A stretch of DNA of 37,581 nt from NCBI GenBank assembly GCA_029251005.1, contig JAQXEE010000097.1, positions 1 to 37,581 of the forward strand. Direction: 5' to 3'. Source of the stretch: Flavobacteriales bacterium (GTDB lineage Bacteria; Bacteroidota; Bacteroidia; Flavobacteriales_C; GCA-002722245). The translations under genes and the position numbers were made by a program. Every line of letters starts with the position of its first letter. Position 1 is the stretch's first letter. Shown piece after piece: positions 13,024 to 26,864 of the stretch. The notes beneath the pieces were generated by a model. The model was not told the origin of the DNA. It made no database searches and was given only the letters and a program-made list of their open reading frames with translations.

Positions 13024-16000
13024 TTATCTAAGCATTGTTATAGTCCCAATTCTAGATTTTGACTCTACGCCTCCACTTATGTTAACATAGGTATATTTTA
13101 AATGATAAACATAAACATCTTGTTGAACCTCTCTAGCGTATCTCATATGCGTACCATCCCAGAATTCACCTAATGAATGTCCTTCCCAAATCAACTCTCC
13201 CCATCTATTATAAACTAGAACTTCAACAGTTTGGATACTTCTACCTTTAATTATCCACTTCTCATTTAATCCATCTCCATCGGGTGTAAATGAATTTGAT
13301 AACCAAACATGTGAAGGACAATCTTCCTGAACTTTCACCCAGTCTCTTCTAGTACACCCAACCTGATTAGTGATATCGACTACATAAGTTCCCGGAGCAT
13401 CAATATCTATCAACTGTGTTGTTTCCATGGTACTCCATAAGTAAGAATCACCAACTCTTCCTGGATTTAAACTTAAACCGTTTAGTTCGTCTTCAAAACA
13501 AACAACAGTATCATTTCCTAATCTACTTTCAGGCAAAGAATGAACAGTTACATTCACTTCACCTTGATCTGCGCAGGTTCCGTTTGTCACCTGTAAACTG
13601 TATATTCCAGACTCCTCTACAGTAATACTCGTTGAAACTTCATTTGTACTCCATTCAAAGTCATAACTAGGGTCAACCTCTGGACTTAAAAGCGTAATTA
13701 CATCACCTTCACAAATGCTTGTGTCTGGTCCTAAATCTACACTTGGCACTTCTAAAAAGGTGAAAATAACAGTATCTTTTGCCGAACACTTTGTTAATAC
13801 ATCTGTTACAATTACGGTATATTCCCCCGTAGTTTTAACGTCTATTGATCCTGATAATGCTGAACTTCCTCCAGCCCATTGATTAACATAACCTACATCA
13901 TCAAATCCAGTTGCTAAGGGGAATGTTTCTCCTTCGCAAAGCAGTTGATTATTTGGCAAGTTAACAGTAGGTGGTGTGTTCACTTTTAAATAAACACTAG
14001 CTGTATCAAAACAGCCTGTAGCATCATTGGTAACTGTCACATTGTATCTATTTTCTTTTGTTACAATGATTGTATTACTTGTTTCACCAGTACTCCATTT
14101 AGTACTTACTCCACTTAAACCATGATCTAAAACTCTATCTTCTCCTAAACAAATCGACCCTGCAGATAATTGAGGATCTGGAATTGAATTTACAACCAAA
14201 TTAATTGTTGTATCTCCAGCACAACCTTCATCACTTGTAACACTTAAACTGATCGACCCAGCATCATTCTCACTAACTGAGGTAAATGCTAAATCATTTC
14301 CTGTTGATCCGCCAAACCATGCAAATGCATAACCTAAAGATGGATATCCAGAAACAAATGTAATGTCCTCTCCTGCACAAACTGCAGTATCTTTTAAACT
14401 TATTGGAAGGTTATTATCTACTCTTACACTACTTGTATCGTTAGAAATACAACCAAACTCGTTTGTGAAACTTAAAATAACTTCAACTCGGTCTCCATCT
14501 AGTCTATTATCCACAGTATAACTCGTACCTGTTGAATTATCAATCAACCATTCCCAATTTGCACCAACAACTCCCTGAAGATCAGCAGGTACGTTTAACG
14601 TAGCACTTCCCGCAGGACAAATCGATGTATCCAATGCGATACTATAAGTCGTCCCATCTTCTTCCGCCACAGAGATCGTATCTGCATATATGCAACCATT
14701 TGTATCAACTACACCTAAGGCGTAAGTTCCTGTGGCAGTAACATTTTGAATCTCACTAGTTCCTATCGAAATCATATTTGTTAAATCAACCCATTGATAT
14801 GAGACAAATACTCCTCCGCTTAATGTTATAGTTGGCTCAGTTCCTTTACAGATAAAAGTATCCGTCCCTAAATCCACACTTGGTAAATCGTTAACTGTTA
14901 ACATTACTGAGTCTCTAAAAGTACAACCTGCACTATCAACTTCCAACCAATAAACTCCATCTTGACCGGTAGATAATGAAAGTCCAGTTGTAAAATCATT
15001 CCAACCTATTACGGTTACATCACTTCTACCAGAAACCATGGAAAAATTCACCTCAGCATCCCCAAAACAAATTTCTTGATCGTCACCTAAGTCTATTTCT
15101 AAAGGATTTAACTCAGTAATTGTAATCGTGTCCCTTCCCTCACAACCACCTGCATCAGCAACTCGAACAGTAACTGTTCCCTCACCTGTGGTAAATACTT
15201 GTGTTCCTGTTATCCCTGCGTTATTCCAATCAAACGTAAAACCTGATCCAAAGCCAGCATCTAAATCTATTGTTGTTCCAATACAAATCTCACGGTCACC
15301 TCCTAAATCAACTGTTAATTCTGTTGCTACTTTTAAATGAACAGTGTCCGAATCACTACAATTGTTTTCCGTGACAATTATATAATAATCACCTTCATCT
15401 CCATTTCCTTTTTGGATAGATTGACTTGATTCCCCACTACTCCAATTAAAATCTGCACCAGGATTTCCAGCATCAAAAGTAACATCCGGAGAAGTTGCAC
15501 AAATTGTAACCGTATCAGCACCTAGATCAACTTGAGGAGATTGACTAATTGTGACGTTAATTGTATCTTCTGCAAAACAACCTGAAGCATCCTCTACTGT
15601 AACAATATACTCTCCAGTAGTATTTACAGTAATGTCTCGAGATAAAGATCCGTTATTCCAAGTATAGCTTGAGAAGCCTAATCCTGCATCCAGTTGTAAA
15701 TCTCCTAAGTTAGAACACAAAGTAGTGTCTGGACCTAAATCCAAAACAACATCTCCTAAAACAGTAACTGTTATAGAATCTCTTGTAGAGCAACCAGCAA
15801 ACGTTACCTCAACTTTGTATTCAGCAGTTGAATCTACGTTGATTGTTTGAATTGTTTCTCCTAAAGGTTCCCAAAGATAGTCTGCTCCAATATTTTCACC
15901 ATCTAACGTTAATGCACCTAAAGCAGCACATACTGAAGTATCATTTCCTAAATCAATAATTGGAGATGTTCCAATGGTAATATTAATCGTATCAGAACCA

Positions 16001-19000
16001 ACGCAACCGAATACATCCTCAACATCTACAAAATACTTTCCTGAAGTGGCTACTAATAATGTTTGAGTAGTTAAAGTATTATCTCCATTCCAAATAACAG
16101 ATGTAAACCCAGTCCCTACATCTAGAGTTAAATCTTCATCACATATTGCAGTATCACTTCCTAACTCTAAAAGGGCAATTCCTTCAACAGTAACTACAAC
16201 AGTGTCAGTGTCTGAACAAGTTCCAACCGAAGCAATTGCCCAATACTCACCAGTTTCTATAACATTAAAAGTAGTATCTACTGATCCATCTTTCCATTCG
16301 TACTTCCCATCTAAATTAAAGGCATCTAAAACAAAGGCTCCGTTTGCAGCACATACTGTTGTGTCATTTCCTAAATCAACAGTTGGAATAACCCCAACTG
16401 TGATACTTAATTCTAGGGAATCTGCACCACATGAATTATCTCCAACGACTGTTAAAACTCCATCAGTTGCGTTATCAGCAAAATCCAATGTTGCAGTAGA
16501 ATCTAAAGGTATTGGATTGAAGGTTAAACCTGTTCCTGAATAATTCCAAGTATAAAATGTTGCACTTACAGCTGTTGAAACTTCAATTAAAACCCCCTTA
16601 GCTCCTGCACAAATGATTGTATCACCGTCTTTAAAGGAAGGAGCATTGGGTACTATTTGCTTGATAAATTCAATCGTATCTGAATACACATGACAATCTG
16701 TATTTCCTGCATCTGCATCATCGCTTACTAAAACGTAATACTCACCTGCATCCGAAATCACAAACTCACCTGTTGTATTAGTAGGTGTTTGAGCAACGTC
16801 ATTAAAGTACAATTCATATAAAAACATCCCTGCATCATTACCGTCTAACTTTACATAAAGCGTTGAATCGGTACAGGATATTACAGTATCTGTTAAACCT
16901 ACGTCATTATTGTTAATTAGGGTAACCTTACCTGGGTTTGCACAAATAGATCCACAACTTATATCTCCCGGCACAATCACAGAATCTTTTAAGACACATT
17001 GTGGGTTCTCTGTATTTGTTGCTGTTACAGTATAAACTCGATCGGTTGATTGAACGATAACATCACCCGTCGTTTCAATAGCAGTTGTTACTTCATTATT
17101 AATACTTGGAGCCCATGCAATTGAGTAGTTTGAAACATCCTCGGGACAGGTTACAGTGTAGGGATTACCAACATAGTTGCCATCAAATGTTGCTCCTCCT
17201 GCTGGTGAAATAATAGCTGTTGCTAAATCATTGTTTTCGTCATAAATACTAAATTGATAATCTCTTAATTGAGAAGCTCCTGGAGTTCTAGCTACTGCTG
17301 TACCAATTGTAATTTGATCTCCTGTATTTAAGGATAACCAAAACTCACTAATAGGAGCTGGATTCCATTCATCTATTTCTCCTCTAGGTGCTAATCGCGT
17401 ATCTTTTTGAATTAAAGTTTTACCTGTAGAAGTTGTTATTACTGCATTCACCCATCTTTCCCATTGAAAGTAAACTGGAGTATGGACTTGAATTTTCCAT
17501 AAACATGGCGTTGGTTGTTCCTTTATTTTAGCTCCTAAATCTGCGTGACAATCCGTAATTCCTAAAAGGTCGGCATCTATGTATTCATTAATCTCTGTAT
17601 CGTACCCTACTATAACCGTGGTATATGCAATACAAGTAGGATCTGACAAATCTTGTAGTTCAATATTATAAGCTCCATCTCTTACTCCATCCATTTGAAC
17701 AGTCCCTCCTGATGCCTCAAAAGAAACCGTATCATTTCCAACTGGTGTAGTTGCAATATAAGTCACTAGGTAATCTGCAGGGAAATTTGTTAAATCTAAT
17801 GTAATACTTCCATCAGGTGTCCCCTTACAGACTGCGTTTACGGATGTTCCTGAAGCAATGAATGGACATAATTTACAATCATTGGCAGTCACTGTAAATC
17901 CATTAATATTTCTTGGATCTTGACAATCGTTTTGTGTATTACTATAAACAGTATAGCATCCATTTGAATTACAAATCTGTCCAGAATAAACATCAGTTCC
18001 CAAAGTATTTGGTGTAACTGTGACTTGCTTATTTGTTCCGATAAGCATTCCTGTTTCAACATCACCTTTAAACCATTTATATTGAATATCTGGATCATTT
18101 CCGGCATCAACCATTAACTCAAGTGTAACCGATTTTCCTAAGCACATAGTCGTTGTACCGTTAATAATGTCAACATGACCGTAAGGCAAATAATCGCCAG
18201 TACAACCTAAATCAATACCAATAGGAGTACCCTCTACTGCTGTTGGCTTATCCATCGGCAGATGCAAAACAATTGCATCAATAACTCCTCCAAAATCGGT
18301 GAAATTTATTGTCCCGCCTAATGAACCTGCTTTTTCAGTAAAAGCAGCTTCAACGTATGGTATAACATCGTTTACAAAATCAACATCTCCAAACATCGGT
18401 TTAATAATATCCAAGTACTTTGTCACTTCACCGTAGGGAACCGATCCGTCATAATAACCACCAAATGAGCTACCAGCAGGATACTCACAATAACTTGTAT
18501 TATTTTCAACTACAGAAACCCATTTTGCAATATCATTTGCATATCCGGCAGTTGTTGCTGGTAAACCTGTCCAACAACCTGGACCTGTATCATTTAAAAT
18601 ACCTTCAGCATTTAAAAAAGCATTTGGACCTCCATTATAATTAGAAGCTGACATTTTCACATAAGCATATGGATCATGCTTCATTTTACAATCTACATTT
18701 TCATAAAAATCCCAACCTACGTTGTAATTAAAAATTTGACTAGTATATAAATCGTAATAGGTTTTTGTTAAAGCACTTGCCTCAAATCCGTCAACCCCTT
18801 CTATTAATTGGTCATACATTGTTGTATTATCAGCTGGATTAGAAGAAGTAGGAATTCTACCGTTTGGATATGCTTGCTGTAAGGCACTCCATGCATTACC
18901 TGGTCCTTCAATTTGTAAACACCCATTATTTATTTGAGCTGCATAAACTACATTCGGATCATAGGCGTCGGGAACATGAGATGGATCATCCCAAGTTAAT

Positions 19001-19368
19001 CCTGTTGCACATCTCAATTCGGTTTCTTGAATTAGAGTTGCCATCCAATATCCCATATTTGGATATTCAACTCTTTGATTAATATTACGAGCTAAATTCC
19101 ACGCTACTGCAATTGCAATTGCCCACGAAGGTTTATTTGATGGTATGAAACCTGGTCGTATAATGCTTCCTCTTTGAGCCCATCCTTGCCCTAAATATAG
19201 TTTTCCTGCTGGATTTGCAGGATCGGTTGGGATATTTGCGCTTATGTATCCTAAAGTATCGAATTTGGCTCTGGATGGTAATCCGGGGCAATCATTTTGA
19301 GCCAATACTTTATTGAAAAGCAAGGTTACAAAATAAACCACTAAAATCAGCCAGTTTTTCCTATTCAT
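13024..19368 (-). CDS. Giant type IX-secreted protein: lytic-transglycosylase-like domain, about 14 Ig-like modules, sorting domain
   Basis: 2114 residues from ATG 19368; the frame extends to a TTG at 19383, but the ATG gives a normal signal peptide (1-24). Residues about 105-290 have the three marks of an SLT/lysozyme-like fold: ATLIQETEL with Glu115 as candidate catalytic acid, GCLQIEG (149-155), and SASNYNGGPNAF (about 239-250), followed by GYANDIAKWV. The middle carries unknown beta-rich segments. About 990-2015 are some 14 tandem modules of 70-80 residues, each starting like VDLGNDTxxC and ending near GCxxxDTxxVTV, with one conserved Cys pair per module. The last about 98 residues (SFTPDGDGLNEKW, VYNRWGELIWEG, DGTH) are the gliding-motility-associated C-terminal domain, a type B sorting signal. 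It is thus predicted to be an exported surface protein that may cut or bind peptidoglycan. Catalysis is inferred, not shown. Confidence 0.85.
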   Translation of the reverse strand: MNRKNWLILVVYFVTLLFNKVLAQNDCPGLPSRAKFDTLGYISANIPTDPANPAGKLYLGQGWAQRGSIIRPGFIPSNKPSWAIAIAVAWNLARNINQRVEYPNMGYWMATLIQETELRCATGLTWDDPSHVPDAYDPNVVYAAQINNGCLQIEGPGNAWSALQQAYPNGRIPTSSNPADNTTMYDQLIEGVDGFEASALTKTYYDLYTSQIFNYNVGWDFYENVDCKMKHDPYAYVKMSASNYNGGPNAFLNAEGILNDTGPGCWTGLPATTAGYANDIAKWVSVVENNTSYCEYPAGSSFGGYYDGSVPYGEVTKYLDIIKPMFGDVDFVNDVIPYVEAAFTEKAGSLGGTINFTDFGGVIDAIVLHLPMDKPTAVEGTPIGIDLGCTGDYLPYGHVDIINGTTTMCLGKSVTLELMVDAGNDPDIQYKWFKGDVETGMLIGTNKQVTVTPNTLGTDVYSGQICNSNGCYTVYSNTQNDCQDPRNINGFTVTANDCKLCPFIASGTSVNAVCKGTPDGSITLDLTNFPADYLVTYIATTPVGNDTVSFEASGGTVQMDGVRDGAYNIELQDLSDPTCIAYTTVIVGYDTEINEYIDADLLGITDCHADLGAKIKEQPTPCLWKIQVHTPVYFQWERWVNAVITTSTGKTLIQKDTRLAPRGEIDEWNPAPISEFWLSLNTGDQITIGTAVARTPGASQLRDYQFSIYDENNDLATAIISPAGGATFDGNYVGNPYTVTCPEDVSNYSIAWAPSINNEVTTAIETTGDVIVQSTDRVYTVTATNTENPQCVLKDSVIVPGDISCGSICANPGKVTLINNNDVGLTDTVISCTDSTLYVKLDGNDAGMFLYELYFNDVAQTPTNTTGEFVISDAGEYYVLVSDDADAGNTDCHVYSDTIEFIKQIVPNAPSFKDGDTIICAGAKGVLIEVSTAVSATFYTWNYSGTGLTFNPIPLDSTATLDFADNATDGVLTVVGDNSCGADSLELSITVGVIPTVDLGNDTTVCAANGAFVLDAFNLDGKYEWKDGSVDTTFNVIETGEYWAIASVGTCSDTDTVVVTVEGIALLELGSDTAICDEDLTLDVGTGFTSVIWNGDNTLTTQTLLVATSGKYFVDVEDVFGCVGSDTINITIGTSPIIDLGNDTSVCAALGALTLDGENIGADYLWEPLGETIQTINVDSTAEYKVEVTFAGCSTRDSITVTVLGDVVLDLGPDTTLCSNLGDLQLDAGLGFSSYTWNNGSLSRDITVNTTGEYIVTVEDASGCFAEDTINVTISQSPQVDLGADTVTICATSPDVTFDAGNPGADFNWSSGESSQSIQKGNGDEGDYYIIVTENNCSDSDTVHLKVATELTVDLGGDREICIGTTIDLDAGFGSGFTFDWNNAGITGTQVFTTGEGTVTVRVADAGGCEGRDTITITELNPLEIDLGDDQEICFGDAEVNFSMVSGRSDVTVIGWNDFTTGLSLSTGQDGVYWLEVDSAGCTFRDSVMLTVNDLPSVDLGTDTFICKGTEPTITLSGGVFVSYQWVDLTNMISIGTSEIQNVTATGTYALGVVDTNGCIYADTISVAEEDGTTYSIALDTSICPAGSATLNVPADLQGVVGANWEWLIDNSTGTSYTVDNRLDGDRVEVILSFTNEFGCISNDTSSVRVDNNLPISLKDTAVCAGEDITFVSGYPSLGYAFAWFGGSTGNDLAFTSVSENDAGSISLSVTSDEGCAGDTTINLVVNSIPDPQLSAGSICLGEDRVLDHGLSGVSTKWSTGETSNTIIVTKENRYNVTVTNDATGCFDTASVYLKVNTPPTVNLPNNQLLCEGETFPLATGFDDVGYVNQWAGGSSALSGSIDVKTTGEYTVIVTDVLTKCSAKDTVIFTFLEVPSVDLGPDTSICEGDVITLLSPEVDPSYDFEWSTNEVSTSITVEESGIYSLQVTNGTCADQGEVNVTVHSLPESRLGNDTVVCFEDELNGLSLNPGRVGDSYLWSTMETTQLIDIDAPGTYVVDITNQVGCTRRDWVKVQEDCPSHVWLSNSFTPDGDGLNEKWIIKGRSIQTVEVLVYNRWGELIWEGHSLGEFWDGTHMRYAREVQQDVYVYHLKYTYVNISGGVESKSRIGTITMLR

Positions 19369-19397
19369 AATTAAACTTCTCAATTGCGAGATGGATT

Positions 19398-19573: not shown

Positions 19574-19987
19574 TTAATGCGGAAGCTTCTTAATAAAATA
19601 ACCGTACAAAAATGTTCCAATCAACGCACTAAAAACAACAACTAAAAAAGATAAATATCCATTTCCCACCAACGTAAAAATTGGACCAGGACAAGCTCCT
19701 GTCATCGCCCAACCTAGCCCAAAAATTGTACCTCCAAACAAATACCGCTTCCATGTTATTTGTTTTGGTGTAAACAAAATAGAAGTTCCATTAATAGATT
19801 TTATTCGCCTTTTTTTAATGACTTGAATTATGATTATTCCAGTAATTATTGCAGATCCAATAATTCCGAACATGTGGAAGGATTTAAACTTAAACATCTC
19901 ATAAATTCGATACCACGAGACAACTTCTGATTTGGTGAAAATTATTCCCAACAACAATCCCGCGAATAAAAATTTTATTTTTCTCAT
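19574..19987 (-). CDS. YeeE/YedE-type sulfur transporter half (DUF6691-like)
   Basis: 137 residues with about four hydrophobic segments. The stretch GLGWAMTGACPGP carries the conserved Cys of the YeeE/YedE fold, which passes thiosulfate or sulfide-type ions by a Cys relay. This is the shorter half; its partner begins 571 bp upstream and ends 1 bp before this start (TAA-A-ATG), so the two are cotranslated and probably form one transporter. Neighbours are a persulfide dioxygenase-like protein and a SulP permease, which fits sulfur detoxification or assimilation. The substrate is inferred from family and context. Confidence 0.82.
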   Translation of the reverse strand: MRKIKFLFAGLLLGIIFTKSEVVSWYRIYEMFKFKSFHMFGIIGSAIITGIIIIQVIKKRRIKSINGTSILFTPKQITWKRYLFGGTIFGLGWAMTGACPGPIFTLVGNGYLSFLVVVFSALIGTFLYGYFIKKLPH

Positions 19988-19988
19988 T

Positions 19989-20558
19989 TTATTTTAAGCT
20001 TAATATTATTGGTAAAAAAAAGTATGTCATTGTTATTCCTCCAATAAAAAATCCAATTACTGCAATTAAAGAAGGCAATTGTAAATTACTTAAACCACTA
20101 ATCGCATGACCCGAAGTACAACCTCCAGCCCAACGAGTTCCAAATCCAATTAAGACCCCACCTCCAACTAGCAAAATCATACCACGAAGGCTAAAAATAG
20201 CATCCGTCGCAAACAATTCTTCAGGCAGCAATTGTTCACCTGGATTTTTAATTCCCAAAGATTGTAATTCAATAATGATATCAGAGTTCAAATCCATGGG
20301 TGCAGCAGAACTCATATATTCACTTGCTATAAATCCACCCAATACTACTCCACTAAGTAATATTAAATTCCAAATTTGACTTTTCCAGTCAAACCTAAAA
20401 AACTCAGAGAACCTACCTGCTCCTCCAATCGAACACATTGTTCGCAAATTAGATGATAATCCAAAGTTTTTCCCGAAAAACAATAGTAAAAACATCATTA
20501 ACGCTATAAGTGGTCCAGCAATGTACCATGGCCAAGGTTCTTTTATAAGTTCAATCAT
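19989..20558 (-). CDS. YeeE/YedE-type sulfur transporter half
   Basis: 189 residues with about five membrane segments. The motif IGFGTRWAGGCTSGHAISG holds the family's conserved Cys and the Gly-rich pore helix. It starts 83 bp after the persulfide dioxygenase-like gene and ends 1 bp before the second transporter half. Proteins of this type import thiosulfate or move sulfur compounds across the inner membrane. An extracytoplasmic segment near residues 85-120 (SSAAPMDLNSD...) separates the two helical parts. Confidence 0.85.
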   Translation of the reverse strand: MIELIKEPWPWYIAGPLIALMMFLLLFFGKNFGLSSNLRTMCSIGGAGRFSEFFRFDWKSQIWNLILLSGVVLGGFIASEYMSSAAPMDLNSDIIIELQSLGIKNPGEQLLPEELFATDAIFSLRGMILLVGGGVLIGFGTRWAGGCTSGHAISGLSNLQLPSLIAVIGFFIGGITMTYFFLPIILSLK

Positions 20559-20641
20559 TTTAAATTCTTAAGAAAACAATCTTTGTATTTCATCAATCAG
20601 ATCGCTATAATTTATATAATCAGTTATTAGTCTTTATATCC

Positions 20642-22054
20642 TTAATCTAAAGTTGAAGGACAAACATATTCTGATAGCGCTAAGCCTGTTTTCCTAATAG
20701 AATTAAAACCACCTGCAACATCAATTACCTTATCAAAACCTCTCGATTTTAAAATTGATGCTGCTATCATGCTTCTATATCCGCCTCCACAATGAATATG
20801 ATATGTTGTACTTTTATCTAGTTTAGAAATAATTTCATTTATCGAGCCCAAAGGATAATTCACAACTTTATTATCACTAATATGTTCTGTCAAATATTCT
20901 GAATTTTTCCTTGAATCAATAACAGTAATATCTTCAACTAATCTGCTCTCGAGTTCAGCAGCAGAAATAGACTCTATTGAGTCAACTTCGTTTCCTGCAT
21001 CAACCCAAGATTTCATACCTCCCAACAAGAATCCAATAGTATTATCATACCCAACTCTACTTAACCTAGTAACAACTTCTTCAGCTCTTCCTTCATCTAC
21101 AATTAACAAAATAGGTTGCTTTAAATCAATGATTAATGCTCCAACCCATGGTGCAAAACCACCATCAATTCCAATATTTATAGCGTTTGGAATAAAAGCA
21201 TCCTTAAATGTTTGTGGTTTTCTAGTATCTAATAATAAAGCCCCAGACTCATTCGCCAATTCTTCAAAATCAGGTACTGACAATGCTCTTGTTCCTTGTG
21301 TAATTACCTCATCTATGTTTACGTACCCTTTTTTATTCATAACTGCATTTTTAGCGAAGTATTGCGGAGGTGCTGTTAAACCGGTTGTTACTTCTTTGAT
21401 AAATTCGTCCTTAGTCATATCGGCTCTTAAAGCGTAATTAACGGCTTTTTGGTTTCCCAAAGAATCAAAGGTCTCCTTGCTCATATTTTTACCACAAGCC
21501 GATCCTGCACCATGCCCTGGATAAACGATTACATCATCCGATAAAGGCATTATTTTATTTCTTAAACTATCAAAAAGCATTGCTGCTAAATCAATTTGTG
21601 ATAAATCAGTCTTAACAGCTAAATCAGGTCTTCCCACATCTCCAATAAATAAAGTATCTCCGGAAAAAACAGCATGATCCTTACCGTTTTCATCGATTAA
21701 TAAAAAAGTAGATGATTCTTGTGTGTGTCCAGGAGTATGTAAAACCTTAACGGTAATAGCTCCAATTTTAAACTCTTGACCATCTTCTGCTATGATTGAT
21801 TTATAACTTGTTTGAGCTGTAGGTCCGAAAACAATATCAGCACCAGTTTTCTCAGCCAATGAAACATGCCCACTAACAAAATCAGCATGGAAGTGAGTTT
21901 CAAAAACATACTTAATTATAGCATTTTCTTGTTCAGCTTTATCAATGTATGGTTTAATTTCTCTTAAAGGATCAATAATCGCTGCTTCCCCATTAGATTC
22001 AATATAGTAAGCACCCTGAGCTAAACATCCTGTATAAATTTGTTCAATTCTCAT
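20642..22054 (-). CDS. Persulfide dioxygenase-like metallo-beta-lactamase with two rhodanese domains
   Basis: 470 residues. Residues 1-240 are a metallo-beta-lactamase fold of the ETHE1/CstB kind: ETHFHADFVSGH (His54, His56, Asp58; Phe replaces the usual last His), then HTPGHTQES and SGDTLFIGDVGRPDL supply the remaining ligands for one iron. Two rhodanese domains follow. The first (about 260-360) lacks a catalytic Cys, with LIVDEGRAEE at the loop; the second (about 375-465) has it at Cys422 in HCGGGYRS. Such enzymes oxidise low-molecular-weight persulfide to sulfite and can form thiosulfate. It is cytoplasmic and lies between SulP and the sulfur transporter genes. A Crp/Fnr-type palindrome lies 69-82 bp upstream. 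Confidence 0.88.
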   Translation of the reverse strand: MRIEQIYTGCLAQGAYYIESNGEAAIIDPLREIKPYIDKAEQENAIIKYVFETHFHADFVSGHVSLAEKTGADIVFGPTAQTSYKSIIAEDGQEFKIGAITVKVLHTPGHTQESSTFLLIDENGKDHAVFSGDTLFIGDVGRPDLAVKTDLSQIDLAAMLFDSLRNKIMPLSDDVIVYPGHGAGSACGKNMSKETFDSLGNQKAVNYALRADMTKDEFIKEVTTGLTAPPQYFAKNAVMNKKGYVNIDEVITQGTRALSVPDFEELANESGALLLDTRKPQTFKDAFIPNAINIGIDGGFAPWVGALIIDLKQPILLIVDEGRAEEVVTRLSRVGYDNTIGFLLGGMKSWVDAGNEVDSIESISAAELESRLVEDITVIDSRKNSEYLTEHISDNKVVNYPLGSINEIISKLDKSTTYHIHCGGGYRSMIAASILKSRGFDKVIDVAGGFNSIRKTGLALSEYVCPSTLD

Positions 22055-22122
22055 TTCAACATAATTTTATGATTCAAATAATATGGAGCTAACAATAATA
22101 GTAAGTTTGACTTCCTTTTGCA

Positions 22123-22136
22123 GTGACTCAAATCAC
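22123..22136. promoter_or_regulatory. Crp/Fnr-type operator upstream of the persulfide dioxygenase-like gene
   Basis: GTGAC-TCAA-ATCAC is an imperfect 5+4+5 palindrome with one mismatch from GTGAT-N4-ATCAC. It lies 69-82 bp upstream of the ATG at 22054. A degenerate -7 element (TATTATTTG on the minus strand, 22083-22075) would put it around -60, an activator position. Confidence 0.45.
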
Positions 22137-22145
22137 TTAAAGATA

Positions 22146-23900
22146 TTAAATGTCTTTTTCTTTAAAAACATTAGTTTGTAGTGCGTGTTTAAAAACTTGT
22201 TTTTGTTTCTCATTTAAACAATTATCAAAGCAATCAATAGCTGTTTGAATATCGTTATAGAAATGTTTCACTCCTAATTCATCAATAAATTTTGTTTTAA
22301 AAAGGAAGTCTCTAACTGGACCTATTAATCCCGAAAAAGCAACTTGAATTCCTTTTAATTGTAGCTCAGCTATTAATTCTTTTAATGCTTGTAAAGCCGT
22401 TGCGTCAATACTTGAAATACTTCCGCAGTGTAATACAAACAATTTCAAGGGCATTCCTTTTAACTCAACCTCTTTTTTTACTGCATCTATAAAATGTGTA
22501 ACATTGGCAAAGTATAATTGGGCATCATGCCGCATTACTAAAACATCATCTCTTAACTCAATCTCCTCAAAACGACCTACATTCTTAAAATTATTCGTTC
22601 CTTTTAGTCTTGCCAAAACGGCTATATGAGGTTGTGTTGTCCTGTATATAAGCATGATTAAAGAAATAAAAACTCCTGCTAGAATACCCTCTTTAACACC
22701 AAACATAAGTGTAACAATTAAAGAAACTATCAACATCCAGAAATCTTGTTTCTTTGTTTTCCAAAGAAATACAGGATATTTGAAATCAATTAAACCAAAC
22801 ACAGCAACCATAATTATAGATCCTAAAATTGCTTTAGGTAAATAGTAAAAGAGTGGTGTTAAAAATAAAAGTGTTAATGCTATTAAACCTGCCGCTATAA
22901 TTGCTGCTAAATTAGTTTTCGCTCCTGCCTGATCACTTACTGCCGATCGACTAAAACCTCCTGTTGTAGGATAGCATCCAAAAAAGGAACCTACTAAATT
23001 ACCCATCCCTAAACCAATCATCTCTTGATTATTATCCAACTTATACTCTCCTTTATGATTTGATTGAATTGCTTTTGCTATAGATATTGATTCCATAAAT
23101 GCTATCAATGCTAGTGTTAACCCAATTGGAAGTAATGCATCTAAATTTTCGGTTTCTAAATCTGGTATTGAAAATGAAGGCAAACCTGTAGGGATTTCTT
23201 TAACGATAATTACGTCGTGAATTTCTAAATTACCAAACTTAACAACTAATATCCCAGCCACTACAGCGACTAAAGCTCCAGGAATAGAATTGTTTATCTT
23301 TTTAAGATTCCGAACCAAAAGAACACCGCCAAAACCTATACTAAGCGTAACCAAATTAATAACCTCATAACTAAGGAAAGCTTGATGAATAATTGAAAAA
23401 ATATTTGTGCTTCTATCTAAATCAACTCCAATGATATGCTTTAATTGGTTTAAGCCAATAATTAAAGCTGCCGCTGATGTAAAACCACTAACTACTGGTT
23501 TAGATAAAAAATTAACTAAGAATCCTAATCGAAATATTCCAAAAGCGACCTGAACTACTCCCATTATAAACGAAAGTAAAACTGCGAGTAAAATATAATT
23601 TTCACTCCCAAGCACAGCTATTCCAGAAATTCCAGCCGCAACTATTAAAGAATCTAGTGCAACAGGACCAACCGCTAATTGCCTTGATGTTCCAAAAATG
23701 GCATAAACAACTTGGGGAATCATTGCGGCATATAATCCATAAACCGGTGGTAAACCTGCAATCATTGCGTAAGCCATTCCTTGAGGAATAAGCATTACTC
23801 CTACAGTTAAACCTGCCGAAATATCGCCTGAAAAATATGCTTTTTTATAGTTGGGCAACCAATCTAGAATAGGAAAAAATTGCTTTAATTTCATCTTCAT
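22146..23900 (-). CDS. SulP-family sulfate/anion permease with STAS domain
   Basis: 584 residues from ATG 23900; a TTG one codon upstream was not used because the ATG is adjacent. Ten or more membrane segments span about 20-430, with the family signature region near GLYAAMIPQVVYAIFGTS and LAVGPVALDSL. A C-terminal STAS domain (about 450-565) contains GSISSIDATALQAL. SLC26/SulP proteins move sulfate, bicarbonate or related anions. Its place next to a persulfide oxidation gene suggests export or uptake of sulfite or sulfate. A perfect Crp/Fnr-type palindrome lies 45-58 bp before the start codon. Confidence 0.92.
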   Translation of the reverse strand: MKMKLKQFFPILDWLPNYKKAYFSGDISAGLTVGVMLIPQGMAYAMIAGLPPVYGLYAAMIPQVVYAIFGTSRQLAVGPVALDSLIVAAGISGIAVLGSENYILLAVLLSFIMGVVQVAFGIFRLGFLVNFLSKPVVSGFTSAAALIIGLNQLKHIIGVDLDRSTNIFSIIHQAFLSYEVINLVTLSIGFGGVLLVRNLKKINNSIPGALVAVVAGILVVKFGNLEIHDVIIVKEIPTGLPSFSIPDLETENLDALLPIGLTLALIAFMESISIAKAIQSNHKGEYKLDNNQEMIGLGMGNLVGSFFGCYPTTGGFSRSAVSDQAGAKTNLAAIIAAGLIALTLLFLTPLFYYLPKAILGSIIMVAVFGLIDFKYPVFLWKTKKQDFWMLIVSLIVTLMFGVKEGILAGVFISLIMLIYRTTQPHIAVLARLKGTNNFKNVGRFEEIELRDDVLVMRHDAQLYFANVTHFIDAVKKEVELKGMPLKLFVLHCGSISSIDATALQALKELIAELQLKGIQVAFSGLIGPVRDFLFKTKFIDELGVKHFYNDIQTAIDCFDNCLNEKQKQVFKHALQTNVFKEKDI

Positions 23901-23944
23901 CAATTTACTTTGCGCAAAGAAATGAGATAAAGATTTAATTCACA

Positions 23945-23974: not shown

Positions 23975-25606
23975 TTATTCTCCAATAAACTCTACCCTTC
24001 TATTTAATGCTCTCGATACTTCACTATTATTAGGAGACAACGGTCGAGTTTCTCCGTAACCTTTAGACTCTAATCGTACAGCAGTAATTCCTTTGGAAAT
24101 AAAGTAATTTTTTACAGATAGAGCTCTGTTTTCAGATAACGCTAAATTTTCTCTAAAATCACCTACATTATCTGTGTGACCATGAATTTTAAGCTTTAAT
24201 ACTGGATTAGATTGCAAAACCAGTAAGATTTCCTTTAAGATTATTTTAGCTGAATCGGTTAATTCAATCGAATTGCTTTCAAAAGTGAAATTAGGATGAA
24301 TAATGGTGTCACCAGTAGAAAATTTCATTACTGATTCATAGCCTGTAATCCCCACAATTGTATCTATTGAAATTGAAATGATTTTTTCTTGTGGACATTC
24401 TATATGATATATTGGCAAAGAAGGTAAACCTAACCCTAAATGCATTTTATACTCAACAGGAATACATATTTGCTCCGGTCGCCATTTTGCTTTTTTACCT
24501 AAATGATTTGGGAATTCAATTTCTCCAATAAAATTACAGCCTAATTCATAAGCTCTTCCCTGAAAATCCATTGGGATATATAACCTTTTGTTTGGTCCTT
24601 CTTGAATTTGTCCGAATCGTGCATTCGTTTGATGTCCGTGGTGTAAGAGTTTTCGAGATGCGTTAATTTGAGATTCATACTGATAATAAATTTCATATTG
24701 ATTTAGCTTCTCCCCTTCACATTCGGTAATATATAATAAACTATCATTTGGTGAAAAGGCAACTCCATAAACATCATCTGGATCAGAAAAATTATTGATC
24801 TTAGCAAACGTTGCATCAACCGATCCTGTTTTATTGTTAAAGTTTACTATCTCACAAATTCCAAGTTTTCCATTTTTAAAAAAAGTTGTTGCTAACTGAT
24901 TGTGTTTATGATTAACATTCATAATACCAATAGAGCTGTATAAAAATCTATTCTTTACTTTCGTAACAGATAAAGCGTATGTTCCATTAGAGACTACTTT
25001 TTTGAACGTCAAACTGGAATCAATTAAAACAGACTCATATAATTGTCTAGATTTTAATCCTGCACCATGAAATACGGCCCAATAATCTGTTCCATTACAA
25101 TGCGGAACAATTGTAGCCGCCTGCATGTAGTTACCAACCAGTAAAGCTTTATTTGATTGAATCACATTAATTCGTTCATTTTTCTCAGCTGTTATCTGAG
25201 TAAAATCCCACCCCGTTACATTATTACCGCTGCCGCGTGGATGAATTAATAAATACTCATCATCTTTATTTGGTATTTTCACCGAGAGTATTTGAGCGTG
25301 TGAATTACTGGATTGCAATAAAACCTCAGCTTCATGATAATGATTATCCCAAATCAAAGAACCATCTGAGTAAAAAAGGACTCGTCCTTCATCATCAGAC
25401 ATTACCGTGCTTAATTCGTTCTCTACGGTCATCCATTCGTTTTGAATTCCCTTTTGTTTTGTTTCCCCCGTTTGTCCTCTAATTACATAAGGATTGTCAC
25501 CCTGGGAAAAATTTAAACCAGATTGGTAGCCGAAATACCATTTGTTGGGGCTTGATTGACCGATGGCAAACAACCCTAAATGGATAAATAACATAATTAG
25601 TTTCAT
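23975..25606 (-). CDS. OmpA-family envelope protein with N-terminal propeller-like domain
   Basis: 543 residues with a signal peptide (1-16). The N-terminal about 400 residues begin KWYFGYQSGLNFSQGD and contain EGRVLFYSDGSLIWD and IPNKDDEYLLIHP, a pattern common in Bacteroidota proteins predicted to form a beta-propeller. The C-terminal about 110 residues are an OmpA-like peptidoglycan-binding domain: IHGHTDNVGD, LSENRALSVKNYF and SKGYGETRP with the conserved Asp and Arg. It is probably tethered between the outer membrane and the wall. It is transcribed after a type IX-secreted protein gene, but a terminator lies between the two. Confidence 0.85.
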   Translation of the reverse strand: MKLIMLFIHLGLFAIGQSSPNKWYFGYQSGLNFSQGDNPYVIRGQTGETKQKGIQNEWMTVENELSTVMSDDEGRVLFYSDGSLIWDNHYHEAEVLLQSSNSHAQILSVKIPNKDDEYLLIHPRGSGNNVTGWDFTQITAEKNERINVIQSNKALLVGNYMQAATIVPHCNGTDYWAVFHGAGLKSRQLYESVLIDSSLTFKKVVSNGTYALSVTKVKNRFLYSSIGIMNVNHKHNQLATTFFKNGKLGICEIVNFNNKTGSVDATFAKINNFSDPDDVYGVAFSPNDSLLYITECEGEKLNQYEIYYQYESQINASRKLLHHGHQTNARFGQIQEGPNKRLYIPMDFQGRAYELGCNFIGEIEFPNHLGKKAKWRPEQICIPVEYKMHLGLGLPSLPIYHIECPQEKIISISIDTIVGITGYESVMKFSTGDTIIHPNFTFESNSIELTDSAKIILKEILLVLQSNPVLKLKIHGHTDNVGDFRENLALSENRALSVKNYFISKGITAVRLESKGYGETRPLSPNNSEVSRALNRRVEFIGE

Positions 25607-25622
25607 AAAAAATCGATTTCAT

Positions 25623-25656
25623 AAAAAAGCCAACCCTTTTAAGGATTGGCTTTTTA
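25623..25656 (-). terminator. Terminator after the 372-aa type IX substrate gene
   Basis: On the minus strand AAAAAGCCAATCC pairs with GGGTTGGCTTTTTT around a short loop, followed by T residues. It lies 19 bp past the stop at 25675 and upstream of the OmpA-like gene. Confidence 0.85.
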
Positions 25657-25674
25657 ATTTTCTTTTGAAAAGAA

Positions 25675-26793
25675 TTAATCCGAGTGGATAACAGTAAAAA
25701 ACCCGTTGATTCTTTGTTGAATCTCTCCAGGAGTTAAAAACGTGTAGTAATATGTTCCCGGGGAAACATAGGTTCCTATTTCTGTCCTCATATCCCAAAT
25801 TGGATAACTATTATCCTGAGAATTATAAACTTTAACACCCCAACGATTATATATTATTAATTTAGAATTTGTCCAATCTTGATTTAACAAAGTTTGACCT
25901 ATTATAAGCTCAAAAACATCATTAATTCCATCAGAATTAGGAGTTACAATATTTGGAAAAGTATATGATCCTGTACAAGATGCAGCATCTAAAAGATTAA
26001 CTTTTACTGAATCGATAATCTCACAAGTTTCATCAAAAATTCTAAAAATATAATATTCTCCAACATTAGGATTAACAGTAGTGTATGGTTTTTCGTTATC
26101 CCATAAATTATTCCAGTGATAATATGGAAATTCGGCATTAGCATAAATTGTATCACCAATACAAGCGCTAAAACCCTCACCTAAATTAGGTTTTCCATAC
26201 AATGAAATAGAATTGTATGGACTAATGAAGTATTCTCCTGTTCCACTTTGAGTTGGAAATGTCACAGAATTTGTAATTGATGTTCCCGCAGTATGTATTT
26301 TAACACTTAACCTAGAACATAAAGTTTGGTCATAATCTAATTCTTGTTTCGGGATTACAAAAGTGTAATAAACATGATTGGTGGCTTCATAAGTAGAAGA
26401 CTTTAACTCCGCTTTTGCAAACCCTCCAGAATTGGCTTCACAAGGCGTAATATCATTAGGCGATGTCACGTGTCCATTACACAACGAGTTTGTTTGAGTA
26501 GAATCGTAAGTATAATACAAATCAATTTGACTCCCACCTAAGTCTATAACGTTGTTTGAGTTCAGATCAAACATTAGGTACACAAAATCATCGTCATCAC
26601 CCAATATCCCGTCACTGTTTAAATCCAAGGTGAAATCATTTAAAACTTCAACATAAATTTTAATACTGTCTCCAAAAACATTGTAGGTGATTTTATGCTC
26701 ATCATCCGAAGCAATAATGATTCGATCTTGTGAAAAAACAGCGAAAGTAAAAAAGGAGAAAACAAGTAAGGCGATAGTTTTAATTCTACTCAT
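25675..26793 (-). CDS. Type IX-secreted protein with gliding-motility-associated C-terminal domain
   Basis: 372 residues from ATG 26793; the frame runs up to a TTG at 26835, but that would place coding sequence over the promoter's -7 element. Signal peptide 1-22 (MSRIKTIALLVFSFFTFAVFSQ). Residues 57-69 (DLNSDGILGDDDD) and 76-86 (DLNSNNVIDLG) look like paired calcium loops of the EF-hand or dockerin kind. The final about 95 residues (NIVTPNSDGINDVFE, IYNRWGVKVYNS, then SPGTYYYTF) are the type B sorting domain used by type IX secretion. The protein is expected on the cell surface. Its ligand is unknown. Confidence 0.85.
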   Translation of the reverse strand: MSRIKTIALLVFSFFTFAVFSQDRIIIASDDEHKITYNVFGDSIKIYVEVLNDFTLDLNSDGILGDDDDFVYLMFDLNSNNVIDLGGSQIDLYYTYDSTQTNSLCNGHVTSPNDITPCEANSGGFAKAELKSSTYEATNHVYYTFVIPKQELDYDQTLCSRLSVKIHTAGTSITNSVTFPTQSGTGEYFISPYNSISLYGKPNLGEGFSACIGDTIYANAEFPYYHWNNLWDNEKPYTTVNPNVGEYYIFRIFDETCEIIDSVKVNLLDAASCTGSYTFPNIVTPNSDGINDVFELIIGQTLLNQDWTNSKLIIYNRWGVKVYNSQDNSYPIWDMRTEIGTYVSPGTYYYTFLTPGEIQQRINGFFTVIHSD

Positions 26794-26832
26794 GATTTTA
26801 TAAAAATTAGATCTCGTAACAAAACGTAGTTG

Positions 26833-26864
26833 CAAATCTAGTAAAATCGATTTAGAGTTTCAAC
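26833..26864 (-). promoter_or_regulatory. Promoter of the 372-aa type IX substrate gene
   Basis: On the minus strand GTTG (one change from TTTG), a 20-base spacer and TAGATTTG (26840-26833). The -7 box fits TAnnTTTG exactly. Transcription would start near 26827, about 34 bp before the ATG. Confidence 0.65.

Follow-up and report, generated by a model that had tools for sequence, protein, structure and literature searches.

A predicted ChiD-type domain on a giant type IX-secreted protein points to a probable cell-surface chitinase/adhesin in a Flavobacteriales bacterium

Long repetitive surface proteins that end in a type B sorting tail include the adhesin SprB, which binds SprF, and type B cargo is bound by PorP/SprF-like barrels in both P. 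gingivalis and F. johnsoniae (PMC9143113). F. johnsoniae also exports ChiA through the type IX secretion system (T9SS), a chitinase built of many modules, Fn3-like and Ig-like ones among them (PMC7426924). Here we describe a protein that shares features with both and whose sole relative found among solved structures is an archaeal chitinase, 5XSV. We take 5XSV, together with 5XSW and 5XSX, to be ChiD of Pyrococcus/Thermococcus chitonophagus, an enzyme whose catalytic domain presumably resembles GH23 enzymes and which, we assume, has chitin-binding domains of its own. Each of these systems also differs from the present protein. SprB is not known, to our knowledge, for an N-terminal enzyme domain. 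The catalytic domains of ChiA are GH18 TIM barrels, a fold unrelated to the domain described here. Finally, 5XSV is a free archaeal enzyme, whereas its counterpart here tops a 2,114-aa T9SS protein with an Ig-like stalk.

The window is the whole stretch of DNA that we analysed, 37,581 nucleotides from a Flavobacteriales bacterium (contig JAQXEE010000097.1). On its minus strand, which the original prediction did not name, one open frame runs over 13024-19383 from a TTG start or over 13024-19368 from an ATG start, and the ORF listing and translation give 2,114 aa from the ATG. All features below lie on this strand. The protein opens with a signal peptide predicted from the sequence (residues 1-24, MNRKNWLILVVYFVTLLFNKVLAQ; 19297-19368), followed by the predicted catalytic domain (residues 33-372; 18253-19272) and a first Ig_7 (CHU_C-associated Ig-like) domain (residues 404-473; 17950-18159; PF19081, 42.3 bits against a cut-off of 27.3). 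As originally predicted, the remainder includes Cys-paired Ig-like modules, 14 in all, together with a T9SS sorting domain of type B. Module alignment places the array at residues 995-2005 (13354-16386), with modules of ~70-80 residues and Cys pairs spaced 45-56 residues apart, the last module being delimited only to its second Cys. The sorting domain (residues 2023-2092; 13093-13302) scores above cut-off with both PF13585 (CHU_C, 54.3 bits; cut-off 27) and the type B model TIGR04131 (39.6 bits; cut-off 35). Weak matches to CBM_35 and DUF642 within the array fell below cut-off and were dropped. A conserved non-Ig stretch without a family name (INEYIDADLLGITDC...FQWERWVNAVITTSTG; residues about 590-765, about 17074-17601) also occurs behind the catalytic domain in homologues, most clearly in L071.

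Standard family models do not recognise the catalytic domain. Neither Pfam nor NCBIfam gave a credible match, whether to the domain by itself or to any of 31 aligned sequences, and PHROGs returned nothing for the window protein's own copy. A PDB-wide profile search yielded 5XSV, annotated 'Chitinase', as the sole significant match (E = 5.2e-13 with 22 rows and 5.2e-17 with 31), and the runner-up in the 31-row search stood at E = 0.38. The alignment covers the catalytic Glu (AAKE), FQVE, KDPWA and YNRG of 5XSV, and the catalytic Glu and the FQxE, DP.A and YN.G motifs line up between the two proteins. It continues past the YN motif of 5XSV (at about 335-340) as far as chain residue 449, pairing YDANLTWDDIEYFF...GDHISY in the C-terminal part of that enzyme with YYDGSVPYGEVTKYL...GGTINF in the window protein. 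Fold comparison agreed. With a template-free AlphaFold2 model of the domain (pLDDT 88.5, pTM 0.92), the top Foldseek matches were two 5XSV chains (E about 1e-6, probability 1.00, TM 0.66 by query length), to which identity is about 16%. An earlier 22-row AlphaFold model (pTM 0.84) had no significant Foldseek match; trimming and a deeper alignment gave the pTM 0.92 model and the significant match to 5XSV. By profile similarity to 5XSV and by its predicted fold, the domain is of ChiD type.

These comparisons did not support the original assignment to a lytic-transglycosylase-like domain. No SLT or lysozyme model of Pfam or NCBIfam matched the window protein, PF01464 found nothing in 30 homologues either, and hhalign against 27 SLT domains of the same class aligned 20 columns at a probability of 1.8%, leaving the active site unaligned. 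In the fold search, goose lysozyme (1GBS, E = 2.6), MltF and Slt do appear below 5XSV, as weak and non-significant matches (E > 1), which is what a distant lysozyme fold would be expected to give. The wider link to the GH23 lysozyme fold rests mainly on the presumed GH23-likeness of 5XSV, and this likeness would also account for the SLT-type marks noticed initially. Compared with goose-type lysozymes of GH23 and SLT domains (PF01464), the window domain has the same order of Glu, Gln and YN motif but differs in having an extra C-terminal region and, probably, chitin as its substrate.

The three marks themselves are present, in the predicted order: QETEL at residues 114-118, GCLQIEG at 149-155 and SASNYNGGPNAF at 240-251 (18616-18651), an AYNAGPG-like motif with YNGGPN. 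Conservation across the 31-row alignment goes beyond chance. Glu115 (19024-19026), the predicted general acid, is kept in 30 of 30 covering rows; Gln152 (18913-18915), the counterpart of goose-lysozyme Gln95, and Asp232 of the DPYA motif (18673-18675), which matches KDPWA in 5XSV, are kept in 31 of 31. N95 and P76 are also kept (30/30 rows each). Identity to the window protein is 22-53% for most homologues, and the window domain has 35 acidic residues, of which E115 and D232 alone are invariant. Being one of only two invariant acids among 35, Glu115 has strong sequence evidence for being functional and is very likely a genuine catalytic Glu. E115 and E154 correspond to the Glu residues of AAKE and FQVE in 5XSV and form a putative catalytic pair. 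The original reading holds as far as a distant active site of lysozyme-superfamily type, with Glu115 as the likely acid, borne on a long Ig stalk that has a type IX sorting tail.

The second residue of this pair bears on the chemistry of cleavage. For goose lysozyme, a putative accessory role is assigned to Gln95, and Asp97 assists in positioning the catalytic water (PMC2976769). Gln152 and Glu154 (18907-18909) of the window protein have the same spacing as Gln95 and Asp97, and 5XSV has FQVE. Of the 31 rows, 17 carry an acid at Gln+2, and those without it come mostly from a group with an extra N-terminal domain. Such an acid is not expected in transglycosylases, which have a single catalytic Glu. 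The SLT domain rows in the hhalign comparison read WQFM, and the presence of E154 sets the window protein apart from this pattern. Since E154 sits where goose lysozyme has Asp97, hydrolysis is the better guess, and the window protein is more likely a hydrolase than a lytic transglycosylase. It is highly improbable, in our estimate, that the paralogues belong to a lineage-specific, expanded family of cell-bound ChiD-type proteins split between two chemistries, with Gln+2-acid hydrolases of the window type on one side and on the other an acid-less, mostly CBM2-like group that might cleave chitin in a transglycosylase-like, anhydro-forming manner.

The domain is rare in Bacteroidia. Across 60 related genomes it was confined to two genera of the family to which the window belongs, often in several copies per genome. 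When 395 genomes of the class were searched with a profile, it was recovered in 9, all of this family. The richest genome has seven copies. A phylum sample added two genomes of another family, and 249 other genomes of the genus concerned yielded no further members. The named homologue contigs come from MAGs whose records place them mainly in Flavobacteriales and Cytophagales/Cytophagaceae. Complete members that we examined have a signal peptide, the ChiD-type domain, Ig-like modules and a T9SS tail in common, the tail being type A (Por_Secre_tail) instead of type B in the two Cytophagaceae members. Many paralogues carry an extra N-terminal domain, which CBM_2 (PF00553) matched in 4 of 13 (best E = 4.1e-5), with scores for full-length paralogues below the Pfam curated cut-off; its best PDB match, non-significant, was to part of a chitodextrinase, close to the C-terminal end of that enzyme. 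This CBM2-like domain is absent from the window protein. Two tandem paralogues, L047 and L031 (G006:C27:78500-92000), differ in that one has the CBM2-like domain and the other does not. Another homologue, L138 (G009/G974:C17), has an in-frame TAG in the catalytic domain (about 2332-2334), shortly after the catalytic Glu, which probably marks a pseudogene or an assembly error.

Genes of chitinase families are abundant in the host genome. Searched family by family, it gave 8 matches to GH18 and 4 to GH20. Coordinate and frame-length comparison suggests that five of the GH18 frames (contigs C6, C41, C52, C89 and C140) also carry a sorting tail of type A. Each of the 10 genomes of the family has between 4 and 16 GH18 matches, whereas among 50 others searched in the class 33 have none and the maximum is 6. 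Since the abundance characterises a single clade, it counts as one observation rather than an independent one per genome. The host, an aquatic bacterium, is probably chitin-eating.

Our preferred reading builds on the architecture, the conserved residues, the homology to 5XSV seen in both sequence and predicted fold, and the chitinase-rich genome: the protein is probably a cell-surface chitinase/adhesin, in which a T9SS stalk displays a ChiD-type chitinase whose likely substrate is chitin. Several points count against it: identity to 5XSV is low, the window protein has no CBM2-like domain, the gene lies outside any chitin-utilisation cluster and some paralogues lack the Gln+2 acid. As we envisage it, the signal peptide would direct the protein across the inner membrane and the type IX system would export it through the outer membrane, where type B cargo probably stays on a PorP/SprF-like barrel. 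The genome has ten PorP/SprF genes, but we recognised no such gene in the window. The Ig-like modules, as a chain, would keep the N-terminal domain away from the cell, allowing it to bind a beta-1,4-linked N-acetylglucosamine chain, most likely chitin. Cleavage may proceed by single-displacement hydrolysis, with Glu115 as the acid and Glu154 positioning the water. The cell could in this way stay on chitin particles while oligosaccharides are fed to its other chitinolytic enzymes.

The original prediction was a wall-cutting domain suited to attack on other cells or to wall turnover on contact. A surface-displayed peptidoglycan hydrolase or lytic transglycosylase, harming neighbouring bacteria or remodelling the wall on contact, would fit the ordered GH23-type motifs and the weak matches in fold to goose lysozyme, Slt and MltF, and peptidoglycan and chitin have a beta-1,4 backbone in common. 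We nevertheless judge it unlikely: the closest relative is a chitinase in both sequence and fold, SLT and lysozyme profiles do not match, the SLT profile comparison fails, and the Gln+2 acid would be unexpected in a transglycosylase. Moreover, the genome also has two ordinary SLT genes, and no immunity gene was recognised beside the giant gene. Attack on other bacteria is possible, but we rejected contact-dependent attack as the best explanation, finding no positive sign of it. Most likely, the protein grips and cuts chitin rather than attacking the walls of other bacteria.

Whether it cuts at all bears on another reading, an adhesin that binds chitin or another glycan, with a lysozyme-like domain that has become inactive or nearly so and with a stalk and binding that serve attachment or gliding. 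The build is adhesin-like, with 14 Ig modules and a type B tail as in SprB, and active-site neighbourhoods differ among the up to seven paralogues. We hold this reading doubtful, because Glu, Gln and Asp are invariant despite low overall identity, which argues for kept activity, and the window protein retains the second acid. Specificity, on the other hand, may have moved, given the low identity to 5XSV. That divergence and the many diverged paralogues would permit a hydrolase that acts on a different N-acetylhexosamine polymer, for instance an exopolysaccharide of algae, fungi or bacteria; with chitin the better prior in chitinase-rich genomes, we consider this very improbable.

To the one archaeal relative found among solved structures, the analysis adds a bacterial branch of about 30 members, unrecognised by any Pfam or NCBIfam model, carried on giant surface proteins and amplified in an aquatic Bacteroidota family with an unusual wealth of chitinases. 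Should the domain prove active, the type IX repertoire would gain a non-GH18 chitinase that automated annotation now misses.

Around the gene we found no chitin-utilisation cluster; its upstream neighbours are sulphur genes. This sulphur cluster (19574-23903) comprises two YeeE/YedE-type (Sulf_transp) half-transporters, a metallo-beta-lactamase with rhodanese domains and a SulP permease. Further along, at 23975-26835, an OmpA-domain protein adjoins a second CHU_C-tailed protein of 386 aa.
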